A model generated the notes under the pieces. It saw only the letters and a program-made list of their open reading frames with translations, was not told where the DNA came from and ran no database searches. The translations under genes and the position numbers were made by a program. A stretch of 64,000 nt of DNA from Blautia wexlerae DSM 19850. Its GTDB lineage: Bacteria > Bacillota > Clostridia > Lachnospirales > Lachnospiraceae. The stretch spans positions 311,501 to 375,500 of the forward strand of contig NZ_CP102267.1 in the NCBI RefSeq assembly GCF_025148125.1, read 5' to 3'. This document shows positions 26,240-58,279 of the stretch, in pieces (the stretch's first letter is position 1; each line of letters opens with the position of its first letter).

Positions 26240-26300
26240 GATATGTTTCCTCCTGTGTGAAAAAATGTAACTATAAATGCTGCTGTTCATATACCACTAC

Positions 26301-26443
26301 GTTACTGTTTACTTCGTTCTCAGTAACGTAGCCAAAATTTATTCCAGATTGCCTGCGGCAATGGAATTTTGGCTTGTATGTCTCGGGATTTTGGCATATT
26401 CATGCCAAAACACCTCGCGGAATAGTGATATGTGAACAGTAAC
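26301..26443 (-). repeat. MITE-like 143-bp repeat, copy A
   Basis: On the minus strand this is an almost exact copy of 57714-57856, with about 8 differences in 143 positions by eye. Ends are GTTACTGTTCAC and a matching inverted end ending ACAGTAAC. Inside are palindromes centred on TTTTGGCAT/ATGCCAAAA and AGCCAAAATTCC/GGAAT-AATTTTGGCT. It has no coding capacity. Its flank 26284-26300 itself resembles an element end, suggesting nesting. No direct flanking repeat was found for this copy. Confidence 0.85.
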
Positions 26444-40001: not shown

Positions 40002-41189
40002 TTATTTCTCATCATACTGAGCCATATAATTGCTTACGCAGCGGTTGATCCTGTCAACCGGGTTGAGCAGATAGCTTACGGACTGATCATGATTAAGAGT
40101 ATCAATGATCAGGGCGATATATTTACTCATATCACAGGAGATGTAGTAATCTTTTGCAAGAAGCTCAGGAGACTGATAGATCAGGTTTGTAGTGAGCAGT
40201 TTGTCAAACACTCCTGCCTTATGAGCCTCATCAAATTTCTCGAGTCCGTTTGTAAACAGTCCGAAAGTAGAGCAGATATAAATTCTGCCTGCTCCTCTTT
40301 CCTTGAGGAGAGAAGAAATCTTAAGAACTGTATCACCGGAAGAAATCATATCATCGATCAGGATCATATCTTTGCCCTTAAGGTTTGGACCGAGGAATTC
40401 GTAAGCTGCGATCGGGTGACGTCCGTTGATTCTCTTGGAGTAATCCAGACGTTTGTAATACATACCCATATCAACACCAAGGATATTGGCAAGATAGATT
40501 GCGCGGTTCATGCTTCCCTCATCAGGGCTGATGATCATGAAATGATCGTTGTCGATGTGAAGTCCTTTCTCATGGTTGAGAAGAGCTTTGATAAACTGAT
40601 AGGATGGCTGTACAGTCTCAAATCCATGCAGAGGTGTTGCATTCTGCACGCGCGCGTCATGTGCGTCAAAAGTGATGATGTTTTCCACACCCATACTTAC
40701 AAGCTCCTGAAGTGCTGTTGCACAGTCCAGGGATTCTCTGCCGCTGCGGATATTCTGGCGGCTTTCGTACAGATAAGGCATGATCACGTTTACTCTGCGG
40801 GCTTTGCCGCCGATTGCGCCGATCACACGTTTCAGATCCTGAAAATGGTCATCAGGAGACATAAGATTCTCGTATGGTCCGATGCTGTAGGTAAGACTGT
40901 AGTTACATACATCAACCATCAGATAGATATCGTCACCACGTACAGATTCCATGATCGTACATTTCGCCTCACCGGAACCGAAACGTGCTGTCTGGACCGG
41001 TATCAGATAGGACTCTCTCTGATAACCCTCAAATGCAAAAGAATCAAGCTCTTCGTGGCTGCGCTCTTTACGCCACTGTATCAGCCATTCATTTACTTTT
41101 TCACCCAGATCCTTACAGCTGATCAGAGGGATCAGACCAAGTCTGCCCACCGGAAGTGTAGTTAAATCTTTAGTTGTTGCCTGTGCCAT
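40002..41189 (-). CDS. prs: Ribose-phosphate pyrophosphokinase, long form
   Basis: Makes PRPP from ribose-5-phosphate and ATP for nucleotide, His and Trp synthesis. The PRPP-binding signature MILIDDMISSGDTV and the catalytic loop residues in YESRQNIRSGR are present, together with FDAHDARVQN. At 395 residues it is about 80 longer than typical Prs, with an extended N-terminal part. AGGAGG, lying inside the last codons of the upstream dnaC-like gene, drives its translation 3 nt after that stop, so the two are coupled. Confidence 0.9.
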   Translation of the reverse strand: MAQATTKDLTTLPVGRLGLIPLISCKDLGEKVNEWLIQWRKERSHEELDSFAFEGYQRESYLIPVQTARFGSGEAKCTIMESVRGDDIYLMVDVCNYSLTYSIGPYENLMSPDDHFQDLKRVIGAIGGKARRVNVIMPYLYESRQNIRSGRESLDCATALQELVSMGVENIITFDAHDARVQNATPLHGFETVQPSYQFIKALLNHEKGLHIDNDHFMIISPDEGSMNRAIYLANILGVDMGMYYKRLDYSKRINGRHPIAAYEFLGPNLKGKDMILIDDMISSGDTVLKISSLLKERGAGRIYICSTFGLFTNGLEKFDEAHKAGVFDKLLTTNLIYQSPELLAKDYYISCDMSKYIALIIDTLNHDQSVSYLLNPVDRINRCVSNYMAQYDEK

Positions 41190-45654: not shown

Positions 45655-45741
45655 TAAATAATCATAACCTGTAACTGTTCAGTGCCTCGCGAAACAGCAG
45701 ACTGACGAATAGTTACCATAACTACAACAAGAGGTGATTGC

Positions 45742-54286: not shown

Positions 54287-54548
54287 TTTTGCGCGCCGCA
54301 CTTCGGAATGGTCCCACAGACGTTACCTCTACAGTTAACTCAGCCCAGGCACCCTTACGGCACACAAGAGCTTCTGCTTAGTGCTGCTACATTCCTGTCC
54401 TGACACGGTTCACAGATTCCTGTTGCGTAAGACCCAAACGTCAACGCCACTTATAGAGGGCAGCTCCACAGGATACAAGCCTCGGATTGGCATCACCCCT
54501 GCTGTAGCGGATTGCAGGTACAGGGCACCGCTATCTCCCCGGCTGCGC
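54287..54548 (-). ncRNA. ffs: Signal recognition particle RNA, large bacterial type
   Basis: About 262 nt, read leftwards. The S-domain core GTCAGGACAGGAATGTAGCAGC matches the conserved GUCAGG-GGAA-AGCAGC tip (key parts GTCAGG and GTAGCAGC). The Alu-type half (TGACGTTTGGGTC, GCCTGGGC, AACTG) matches Bacillus subtilis scRNA from memory. A perfect promoter lies upstream. Short open frames on the opposite strand here are not genes. Confidence 0.93.
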
Positions 54549-54555
54549 ATTTCTG

Positions 54556-54584: not shown

Positions 54585-54615
54585 TAGTGAATCATTATAG
54601 TAAAACTTATTACTG

Positions 54616-54677
54616 GGAACGGAGTGAACAGTAACAAACGGAGTGAACAGTAACGAACGTAGTGCGTGAATAGTAAC
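54616..54677 (+). repeat. Tandem copies of the GGAGTGAACAGTAAC repeat end
   Basis: Three head-to-tail units of about 19-23 nt, each ending in ACAGTAAC or ATAGTAAC, match the right end of the 143-bp element. They lie just upstream of the SRP RNA promoter, and the 54678-54836 stretch after them holds only the ribosome-binding site of the next gene. Confidence 0.75.
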
Positions 54678-54836
54678 TAAAACTTTTCTAACACTATTGT
54701 ATGAAAACGATAAATATTATATAATAAACAGAAATAAACTATCTTTATTCTGGAAATGGATATGCCAGAGTACACAACATGTCTTGTATGTATGGATATG
54801 GATAATTCTTAAAACACAGAAATGGAGGATACTATC

Positions 54837-56008: not shown

Positions 56009-56088
56009 CTGTGATAATAAGATAGAGATAACTATTTGGCGCGCTGCTGACAGTGGGGGTGCTGAATAGTTACGATAGGAGTTTACTC

Positions 56089-57708
56089 ATGAGTTACACT
56101 GCTCTTTACAGAAAGTTCAGACCGGATAATTTCGCGGATGTCAAAGGTCAGGATCACATAGTGACTACTCTGACAAATCAGATTAAGCATAACCGTATCG
56201 GCCATGCGTATCTGTTCTGCGGCACCAGAGGAACCGGTAAAACAACAGTAGCCAAAATTCTGGCGAAGGCAGTCAACTGTGAGCATCCCGTAAATGGCAG
56301 CCCCTGTAATGAATGTGCCATGTGCAAGGCAATCCAGGCAGGAACTGCAATGAATGTGATCGAGATCGATGCTGCATCCAACAATGGTGTGGATAATATA
56401 CGTGAGATCAGAGAAGAGGTTTCTTACCGCCCTACAGAAGGTAAATATAAAGTATATATTATTGATGAGGTTCATATGCTTTCCACAGGTGCCTTCAATG
56501 CCCTGCTGAAAACACTGGAGGAACCACCGTCTTATGTTATGTTTATCCTGGCAACTACAGAGGCGCACAAGATTCCGATTACGATTTTATCCAGATGCCA
56601 GAGATATGATTTCCACAGGATCACCATAGACACTATCGCGGCCAGACTGGATGAACTGCTCAAAGTTGAAGGTGTAGAAGCTGAGGAAAAAGCAGTCCGA
56701 TATGTAGCGAAAGCGGGAGATGGTTCCATGCGAGATGCGCTCAGCCTTCTCGACCAGTGTATTGCTTTTTATCTTGGACAGGAACTTACCTATGATAAAG
56801 TTCTGGAGGTTCTGGGAGCCGTTGACACCGAAGTGTTTAGCAAGCTTTTGCGAAAAGTGATCCGGGGAGATGTGACAGGTTCCATTCATATCCTGGAGGA
56901 ACTGATCGTAGGAGGCAGGGAACTGAGCCAGTTTGTGGGAGATTTTACCTGGTATATGAGAAATCTTCTTCTCGTTAAGACTTCTGAGAATCCGGAGGAA
57001 GCGATCGATGTCTCATCCGACAACATGAAGCTTCTGAAAGAAGAGAGCACCATGCTGGATGTGGAGACGCTGATGCGGTATATCCGTATTTTTTCGGATT
57101 TGTCCAATCAGATCCGATATGCAACCCAGAAAAGGGTTCTCGTGGAGATTGCACTGATCAAGTTGTGCCGTCCTGCAATGGAGACTAATCTGGATTCTGT
57201 TCTGGACAGACTGCGTGTGCTGGAACAGCGGATGGATGAACGTCCGGTACAGCAGGTGATCGTGCAGCAGGGTTCAGGGAAAATGCCGGCAGAAACCGGA
57301 GCAGTTCAGGAACCGGCGGGAAACAAAGCACCGGCGAAAGCTGCACCGGAAGATTTGCAGAAGATCGTGGCAGGCTGGAGAGTGATCACAGGACAGACAA
57401 CAGGGATGTTTAAACAGATGCTTCAGAAATCTGTTCCGAAGTATAACAGTGAGACAGGAGAACCTGTTCTTTATGTGGAATTTCAGGATTTTCTGGGGCA
57501 GTCCTATGTGGACAATCCGGAAGCGAAGAAAGAGCTTCAGGACATCATCACTGCCCAGACAGGAAAAACAGTAGAGATCCAGATGCTGGTGGCAGATAAG
57601 CGTCAGCATACAAATCTGGCAAATATCACAGTGGACCAGGCGATAAAGAATAATATCCACATGGATGTTGTGATAGAGGAAGATCCTGATGAGGAAAAAG
57701 GAGAATAA
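56089..57708 (+). CDS. dnaX: DNA polymerase III subunit gamma/tau
   Basis: Clamp-loader ATPase, 539 residues. It has Walker A GTRGTGKTT, the zinc-binding Cys cluster CEHPVNGSPCNECAMC, Walker B YIIDEVHML and the sensor SRC motif (LSRCQRYDF). A Pro/Ala-rich stretch precedes the C-terminal tau region. ATG 56089 follows AGGAG; the frame extends 12 codons upstream without support. The stop codon TAA at 57706 is part of an 8-bp repeat flanking a mobile element. First gene of a dnaX-ybaB-recR unit. Confidence 0.95.
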   Translation: MSYTALYRKFRPDNFADVKGQDHIVTTLTNQIKHNRIGHAYLFCGTRGTGKTTVAKILAKAVNCEHPVNGSPCNECAMCKAIQAGTAMNVIEIDAASNNGVDNIREIREEVSYRPTEGKYKVYIIDEVHMLSTGAFNALLKTLEEPPSYVMFILATTEAHKIPITILSRCQRYDFHRITIDTIAARLDELLKVEGVEAEEKAVRYVAKAGDGSMRDALSLLDQCIAFYLGQELTYDKVLEVLGAVDTEVFSKLLRKVIRGDVTGSIHILEELIVGGRELSQFVGDFTWYMRNLLLVKTSENPEEAIDVSSDNMKLLKEESTMLDVETLMRYIRIFSDLSNQIRYATQKRVLVEIALIKLCRPAMETNLDSVLDRLRVLEQRMDERPVQQVIVQQGSGKMPAETGAVQEPAGNKAPAKAAPEDLQKIVAGWRVITGQTTGMFKQMLQKSVPKYNSETGEPVLYVEFQDFLGQSYVDNPEAKKELQDIITAQTGKTVEIQMLVADKRQHTNLANITVDQAIKNNIHMDVVIEEDPDEEKGE

Positions 57709-57713
57709 ATATT

Positions 57714-57856
57714 GTTACTGTTCACACACCACTATCCCGCGAGGTGTTTTGGCATGAATATGCCAAAATCCCGAGACATACAAGCCAAAATTCCATTGCC
57801 ACAGGCAATCTGGAATGAATTTTGGCTACGTTACTGTGAACGGAGTGAACAGTAAC
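57714..57856 (+). repeat. MITE-like 143-bp repeat, copy B, with target-site duplication
   Basis: Perfect terminal inverted repeats GTTACTGTTCAC and GTGAACAGTAAC bound the element. TAAATATT occurs directly on both sides (57706-57713 and 57857-57864), as expected for an 8-bp target-site duplication. The interior contains large palindromes and no reading frame. Copy A at 26301-26443 is about 94% identical by eye. The insertion sits exactly at the dnaX stop codon, inside the dnaX-ybaB transcription unit. Confidence 0.88.
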
Positions 57857-57922
57857 TAAATATTCTCCGGACAGAAAAGGCAGTAAATAATAAGGCAATA
57901 AATAGCAAGGAGGACATCACAA

Positions 57923-58279
57923 ATGGCAAAACGTGGAGGATTCCCGGGAATGGGTATGCCGGGAAATATGAATAATCTTATGAAACAGGCGCAGAAAATG
58001 CAGCGCCAGATGGAAGAGAATCAGAAAGCTCTGGAAGAGAAAGAATTTACGGCTACTGCAGGAGGCGGCGCTGTAGAGGTAACTATCTCAGGTAAGAGAG
58101 AGGTGACAAAAGTAAAGCTTCAGGAGGAAGTTGTAGATCCGGATGACATCGAAATGCTGGAAGATCTCATCGTTGCAGCTACAAACGAAGCACTTCGCAA
58201 AGTGGAAGAAGAATCTACGGCTGTTATGTCTAAACTGACAGGTGGTCTGGGCGGACTTGGCGGAGGTCTTCCATTCTGA
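57923..58279 (+). CDS. ebfC: YbaB/EbfC nucleoid-associated protein
   Basis: A 118-residue DNA-binding protein with a Gly/Met-rich N-terminus ([21 protein letters not shown], core NNLMKQAQ), the helical YbaB core and a Gly-rich C-terminus. It is conserved between dnaX and recR in many bacteria, as here. AAGGAGG upstream. Its stop codon overlaps the recR start. Confidence 0.94.

Follow-up and report, generated by a model that had tools for sequence, protein, structure and literature searches.

A probable non-autonomous transposon beside dnaX in Blautia wexlerae, its candidate IS66-type partner and its conserved core

The dnaX–ybaB locus and related insertions in the window

The stretch of 64,000 nucleotides from Blautia wexlerae DSM 19850 analysed here (the window) contains a dnaX-like ORF (56053–57708, plus strand) and, downstream of it, a ybaB-like ORF (57923–58279, plus strand), both gene names being putative. 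Between the two ORFs lies a 143-bp unit at 57714–57856, just as the preliminary description had placed it, and its ends GTTACTGTTCAC and GTGAACAGTAAC are indeed exact 12-bp reverse complements of each other. The direct repeat TAAATATT reported on either side is also present, at 57706–57713 and 57857–57864. The first triplet of this duplicated 8-mer is TAA (57706–57708), the stop codon of dnaX, so that the stop is kept by both repeat copies and, as had been claimed, is intact after the insertion. In agreement with its description as non-coding, no ORF of at least 80 aa was found over the 143-bp element. The dnaX target itself is near-palindromic, with GGAGAATA and TATTCTCC at 57700–57707 and 57861–57868.

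We oriented the unit by the core CGCGAGG...CCCGAG, which reads on the plus strand. From left to right, it consists of the terminal inverted repeat GTTACTGTTCAC (57714–57725), the conserved core (57738–57781) composed of CGCGAGG, hairpin 1 (arms 57747–57755 and 57760–57768) and CCCGAGACATAC, a second hairpin (57783–57827, with arms 57783–57793 and 57817–57827), and a 27-bp terminal palindrome (57830–57856), all on the plus strand. The left end GTTACTGT, the first 8 bases of the left inverted repeat, recurs in direct orientation at 57830–57837, 116 bp downstream. The terminal palindrome contains this second direct copy as well as the right inverted repeat (57845–57856), and the two direct copies are the putative repeats used in the collapse described below, of which the palindrome would be the remnant.

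A second copy of 143 bp had been noted on the opposite strand at 26301–26443, and it was found there on the minus strand with 8 differences from the dnaX copy. It has no target duplication, as its flanks ACCACTAC and ATAAAATA do not match. Directly outside this copy, at 26281–26300, part of its other end recurs in inverted form (CTGTTCATATACCACTA), so that the copy resembles the outcome of a rearrangement involving two units.

Besides these two copies, a 69-bp rearranged insertion made of three terminal-hairpin arms was found at 54609–54677 on the minus strand, bounded by exact 8-bp copies of TAAAACTT at 54601–54608 and 54678–54685. This third insertion of the same system within the window is missing from the preliminary description. 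The array lies immediately upstream of the SRP RNA gene (54289–54550, minus strand), and a similar start of a terminal-hairpin array was seen in the near relative G082 (L417). Furthermore, a 46-bp unit at 45671–45716 has GTAACTGTTCAG-type ends and flanks CATAACCT and CATAACTA, which match at 6 of 8 positions; it is perhaps a small relic of a GTAAC-end subfamily.

Copies, target duplications and empty sites

The DSM 19850 genome is a single contig of 4,685,728 bp. A search of this genome with the 143-bp unit scored at least 40 copies among 202 first-look candidates, and the exact core pattern occurs 72 times, with none in the control. For the end pattern GTWACTRTTCAS, 252 occurrences were counted versus 9 for the backward-read control, and paired ends at a total length of 127–157 bp were found 43 times versus none in the control, which argues that the end pattern is not a product of chance. 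Among 61 genomes searched, the 143-bp unit was found in 16, namely DSM 19850 itself and 15 of the 36 others of the genus, with none in the 24 genomes outside the genus. Nothing similar to the unit was detected in the plasmid records searched.

The duplication claimed at dnaX has counterparts at other copies. At the best 30 copies of the genome, with copy boundaries set by alignment, the flanking 8-mers matched exactly in 18 and with at most one mismatch in 26, as compared with 0/870 exact and 2/870 with at most one mismatch for mispaired flanks. The length of the duplication is 8 bp: an exact repeat of 8 bp was present at 18 of the 30 copies, one of 9 bp at a single copy (L006, where it stands in place of the 8-bp one), and repeats of 5, 6, 7 or 10 bp at none. 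Four copies (L006, L014, L023 and L027) have 8-bp flanks with two or more mismatches. In other genomes, exact 8-bp flanks were observed at 16 of 24 loci, taken one per genome from a search by the ends alone. The best copies are mostly intergenic, 27 of the 30 having no overlap with an ORF of at least 90 aa by a crude ORF caller, and the same caller gave no clear pattern of orientation relative to the neighbouring genes among the 30.

The view of the unit as an insertion also predicted empty sites in related strains, and the near relative G082, in which the flanks at the compared sites are 96–98% identical to those of DSM 19850, has an empty dnaX–ybaB site (L224) that reads GGAGAATAAATATTCTCC with one TAAATATT. 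A second empty site was found at the position of the DSM 19850 copy L022, which is missing in G082 (L070); at L019, L024, L025 and L028, the element is present in both genomes. The search for the empty site at dnaX was anchored on ybaB and returned 30 loci, for 29 of which the 330-base stretch beside the ybaB match was examined. Seventeen of the 29 stretches cover the dnaX side, and no element was found there in the 16 loci besides DSM 19850; the remaining 12 represent the far side of ybaB and are uninformative for the site. Among all these loci, only L224 could be aligned base by base at the site. We infer that the insertion at dnaX postdates the split from G082, an exact loss in G082 being the alternative.

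The conserved core and the 27-bp palindromes

A search with the core pattern returned at least 120 stretches from Blautia, Oliverpabstia, Anaerocolumna, Anaerobium and other Lachnospiraceae or Clostridia. A covariance model of the core had matches (E <= 1e-4) in 21 of 299 genomes of the family, corresponding to 20 of 298 genera, and six of the 21 genomes had at least 20 scored copies each. Among 30 listed loci of the core model, a script found a duplication with at most one mismatch in 11, none in 13 and an unmatched core in 6; in six of the 11, all from genomes of other genera, the repeat is exact. The Oliverpabstia units L072, L085, L100, L143, L165 and L167 are 223–233 bp long, their hairpin 2 being enlarged by an insert of about 90 bp.

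We collected 116 core-bearing units, chosen for a duplication with at most one mismatch (87 exact), and these fell into 11 groups by shared 8-mers. The ends vary between the groups, being of the GTTACTGTTCAC, GTAACTATTCAG and GTTACAGTTCAG types, and hairpins 1 and 2 vary too, and the motifs CGCGAGG(T/C)G and CCCGAG are retained across the aligned representatives. In a search that used only the ends, with a single unit taken from each genome, the core was present in 15 of 24 and absent in 9. In addition, the genome G085 has 32 paired-end units of another kind among the matches listed; they represent another MITE family of about 145 bp with GTAACTGTTCAG ends, and the example at L290 (109–252) lacks the core and is flanked by an exact 8-bp repeat. 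Because of these nine end-only units and those of G085, the core family is common but not the sole interior that uses these ends; the nine coreless units also indicate that movement does not need the core.

We considered two accounts of the core. Tentatively, it could be a working structured module, likely an RNA with three stems at a junction in several subfamilies, which is carried on IS66-type MITEs through the Lachnospiraceae, whose end repeats would have been switched between at least three transposase specificities with the fold kept, and whose subterminal direct end copy would allow an insertion to be reduced to a scar of 27 bp. According to the other account, to which we give an even chance, the core is functionless: its arms would match by self-correction of palindromes in replication, and the core would simply reflect the ancestry of one successful MITE. 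The core bases remain constant across subfamilies and genera whose hairpin and ends are not alike, which speaks against a functionless core, as do its presence in 15 of the 24 end-only units and the model matches in 20 genera; its absence from the other nine, in other genomes, is what a functionless core would lead one to expect, and the exactness of the core in the pattern-searched set is in part a consequence of having searched with that pattern.

The covariation analysis was based on 24 hand-chosen sequences, from which five of the GTGTGAG type were removed for a misaligned hairpin, leaving 19. In these 19 sequences, 98.9% of the cells of the core hairpin pair. Doubly changed cells numbered 35, as against 11.1 for shuffled alignments. 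The covariation score was 0.360, compared with 0.147 for shuffled and at most 0.057 for slid controls; neither the count nor the score was reached by any of 500 shuffles. Of the 500 shuffles, 38 reached the observed count of 6 doubly changed pairs among 14, and 499 reached the observed 8 further pair types. These two of the five covariation measures, as well as the 8 of 14 pairs that are invariant, fit a functionless core.

By our reading of single-sequence predictions, a three-way junction is formed by 9 of the 12 representatives whose hairpin 2 is of the other kind, and none is predicted for the subfamily of the window. The strand that folds better is inconsistent between subfamilies, being the minus strand for the window copy and the plus strand for several others, which again favours the functionless account; folding energies did not single out a working strand of the core. 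Likewise in its favour, Rfam gave no match at gathering score over the element or in 8 loci with other subfamilies, and a permissive search of 57600–57960 returned only DsrA at E = 3.2, which is not credible. In our main reading, the core may be under selection for its fold.

The terminal palindrome also occurs alone. The DSM 19850 genome has 152 places that resemble it, with none in the control. We inspected 34 stretches, chosen from the first 100 palindrome matches listed and from nearby core matches. By eye, 13 of these contain the 27-mer without MITE sequence beside it (solos); 21 were set aside, having an adjoining MITE sequence or array or no match to the 27-mer. All 13 hand-picked solos have duplication-like flanks, five of them exact: 11 have 8-bp flanks with 0–2 mismatches (4 exact), and two have 9-bp flanks, a length chosen after inspection, with 0 and 1 mismatch. 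Mispaired solo flanks were exact in 0/156 cases and within two mismatches in 6/156.

Such flanks at 13 of 13 solos, each carrying both ends, would also be seen if the 27-bp solos were transposed units themselves rather than collapsed 143-bp units, and the genome G023 is empty at the solo L358, with one GATTACTT. We regard this origin of the solos as unlikely. At L346, a relative holds the full 143-bp unit, flanked by CCTACAGC, at the site of a DSM 19850 solo with the same flank, and the solo 27-mer is identical to the relative's unit once exactly the 116 bp that separate the direct GTTACTG copies are taken out. At L358, the G082 contig starts inside a longer copy with the same right flank, the left part lying outside the contig. 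Moreover, an element of 27 bp would be hard to bend into a synapse, which counts against solos as transposed units. Collapse in place from 143 to 27 bp can, as far as the aligned sequences tell, be followed in full at one site, L346.

A script applied to 48 loci of G082 identified 16 27-mers without a core or MITE piece detected nearby, of which four have exact duplications, three more have duplications with at most two mismatches, and nine have none, some of these being MITE remnants by eye. Among the examined loci of the GTAAC-type subfamily no collapse was seen: 7 of 39 terminal hairpins have no core within 125 bp, and none of them stands directly between target repeats.

A candidate partner transposon and comparison with known systems

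Transposases of the IS256 type (PF00872) and the IS66 type (PF03050) were sought in 12 genomes, and 16 and 30 loci, respectively, were inspected. MITE-like ends with an exact 8-bp duplication were found only at IS66 loci among them. An IS256-type partner was rejected, as no matching ends were present at the 16 loci; the IS256-type copies L178 and L185 of the DSM 19850 genome have ends of another kind, GAGGGTGTAAAA and GGTAGTGTAAAA, with an 8-bp repeat. The preliminary description had proposed mobilisation in trans, and a transposase gene with the same kind of ends does exist, in IS66-type elements of the same genome and of relatives.

The element in the DSM 19850 genome (L207/L254) is 2242 bp long and has ends GTTACTGTTCAA, an exact duplication TTTTGGTT and one large ORF, which spans 557 aa when counted from the ATG and is preceded by a small ORF of about 54 codons. 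Its protein matches PF03050 at 2e-19 with 70.6 bits (cut-off 23.1) and scores 143.4 bits with the NCBIfam IS66 model NF033517, under the cut-off of 180. The genome contains a second copy of this type with a protein 99% identical and a third one, 82% identical, with an internal stop codon. Exact 8-bp duplications were also present at the IS66-type elements L255, L270 and L280, at L260 with GTTACTTTTCAC ends, at L261 with ends GTTACTGTTCAC and GTTACAGTTCAC, at L265 and L274 with GTAACAGTTCAG ends, and at L199, which has GTAACTATTCAG ends and a gene with an internal stop; the IS66-type elements of relatives include some with GTTACTGTTCAA ends and an exact 8-bp duplication. The ends of IS66-type elements match those of the MITE at 11 of 12 bases in the DSM 19850 genome and at 12 of 12 at one end of L261. 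The remaining IS66 matches have no such end pair in the examined stretch, or have classical GTAAGCG ends (L195 and the like). Within the window, an apparent IS66 fragment at 40008–40637 was a false lead; we take the ORF there, by reading, to be a phosphoribosyl-pyrophosphate-synthetase-like gene.

The interior and core of the MITE were absent from all seven IS66-type elements tested, with 2–4 mismatches per half-motif at best, and the MITE is therefore not a simple internal deletion of these elements. In 64 genomes of the genus, a relative of the L207 protein (E <= 1e-20) was found in 15 and paired MITE ends in 25; 8 genomes had both, 17 the ends only, 7 the transposase only and 32 neither. 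This association is not significant (one-sided Fisher p = 0.16), in a test blurred by draft genomes and other transposase lineages. Such a result, with PF00872 and PF03050 as the families examined, would suit a MITE whose transposase belongs to a different family and makes an 8-bp duplication by coincidence. We consider this very unlikely, as the end variants GTTACTGTTCAC, GTTACTTTTCAC and GTAACTATTCAG of MITE subfamilies have counterparts in IS66-type elements whose duplications are exact, and such ends are missing from the 16 IS256-type loci.

A fixed, non-mobile family of REP-like or terminator-like palindromes, spread by recombination and flanked by a chance repeat, would share the high copy number, the strong palindromes and the position of 27 of the 30 best copies outside ORFs of at least 90 aa, but is extremely improbable in the face of length-specific 8-bp duplications with no exact match in 870 controls, two empty sites in a near relative where a single target 8-mer was found, and IS66-type elements that have this type of ends and an 8-bp duplication too.

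The unit at dnaX is thus very probably a non-autonomous DNA transposon (MITE). The ends, the duplications, the empty sites, the copy number, the near-identical IS66-type ends, the shared covarying core and one collapse can be read directly from the sequences. We infer that the unit is moved by an IS66-family transposase of the ISBst12 type, encoded by separate elements of the same genome. Weighing against this reading are the 11-of-12 rather than full match of the IS66-type ends in DSM 19850, the absence of the MITE interior from the seven elements tested, the non-significant association over the genus, the NCBIfam score under its cut-off, and the lack of a near-exact 8-bp repeat at four of the 30 best copies and of a duplication at the second copy in the window. 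Acting in trans, this transposase would recognise the 12-bp ends and insert the unit, at dnaX into GGAGAATAAATATTCTCC, leaving the 8-bp duplication. After insertion, a copy would either drift or be reduced to the 27-bp palindrome by deletion between the direct end copies, presumably by slippage that is possibly helped by the hairpins. The element is ordinary in kind, being a MITE, and both checks proposed in the preliminary description spoke for it. It has two unusual features: the folded core under different ends across genera, and the in-place collapse.

These results describe a high-copy MITE family with its likely transposase in gut bacteria, and two closely related sequenced genomes in which sites occur in the full, the empty and the collapsed state. 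They make it testable whether ISBst12-type transposases act in trans, what causes a single folded core to turn up with differing ends in about 20 genera, and whether the direct repeats inside these elements make insertions shrink to scars that resemble ordinary palindromic repeats. The insertion beside the dnaX stop codon is also a natural test of the effect of such elements inside an operon.

REPs depend on tyrosine (RAYT) transposases and are not known to leave a duplication. The Blautia family shares with REP and REPIN sequences the short high-copy palindromes, and the 27-bp solos are superficially alike; unlike them, it has fixed 8-bp duplications and a candidate DDE-type partner. Among the titles and abstract openings listed in our literature search, none concerns a MITE in Blautia or other Lachnospiraceae, which is weak evidence of absence, and the review PMC10969869 has no match for IS66, Clostridi or Lachnospir.

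For the partner elements, the closest comparison is ISDge4, placed in the ISBst12 group of IS66 in the consulted portion of PMC12898284, where it is given ends GTGACTACTCAGCA and GTAACTGCTCAGCA, one gene and an 8-bp repeat, a description that fits the partner-transposon picture. The partner elements resemble the ISDge4/ISBst12 group in their one large ORF for a transposase, in ends of the GTAAC/GTTAC type and in duplications of 8 bp. Unlike this group, the MITE has no gene, the partner protein stays under the NCBIfam cut-off for IS66, and the transposase ORF follows a small one.

Among prokaryotic MITEs with an identified parent, MITEPsy1 of Pseudomonas syringae, as presented in PMC3189936, is likewise short and gene-less, with ends common to an autonomous element, a target duplication, several copies and presumed movement in trans. 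The Blautia unit differs from MITEPsy1 in its 8-bp duplication, IS66-type partner and far higher copy number, as well as in an interior absent from the partners tested, a core that covaries across genera, and the 27-bp collapse.

The bcr1–bcr18 repeats of the Bacillus cereus group, according to excerpts of PMC3446304, comprise MITE-like families (bcr1–bcr3) and families with conserved RNA structure (bcr10 and bcr18). Like the Blautia unit, they are high-copy and intergenic, some being MITE-like, some RNA-structured, and they often lie inside transcripts. They differ in sequence and host, and in these excerpts MITE-like repeats and structured-RNA repeats are separate families, whereas the Blautia unit would join both.
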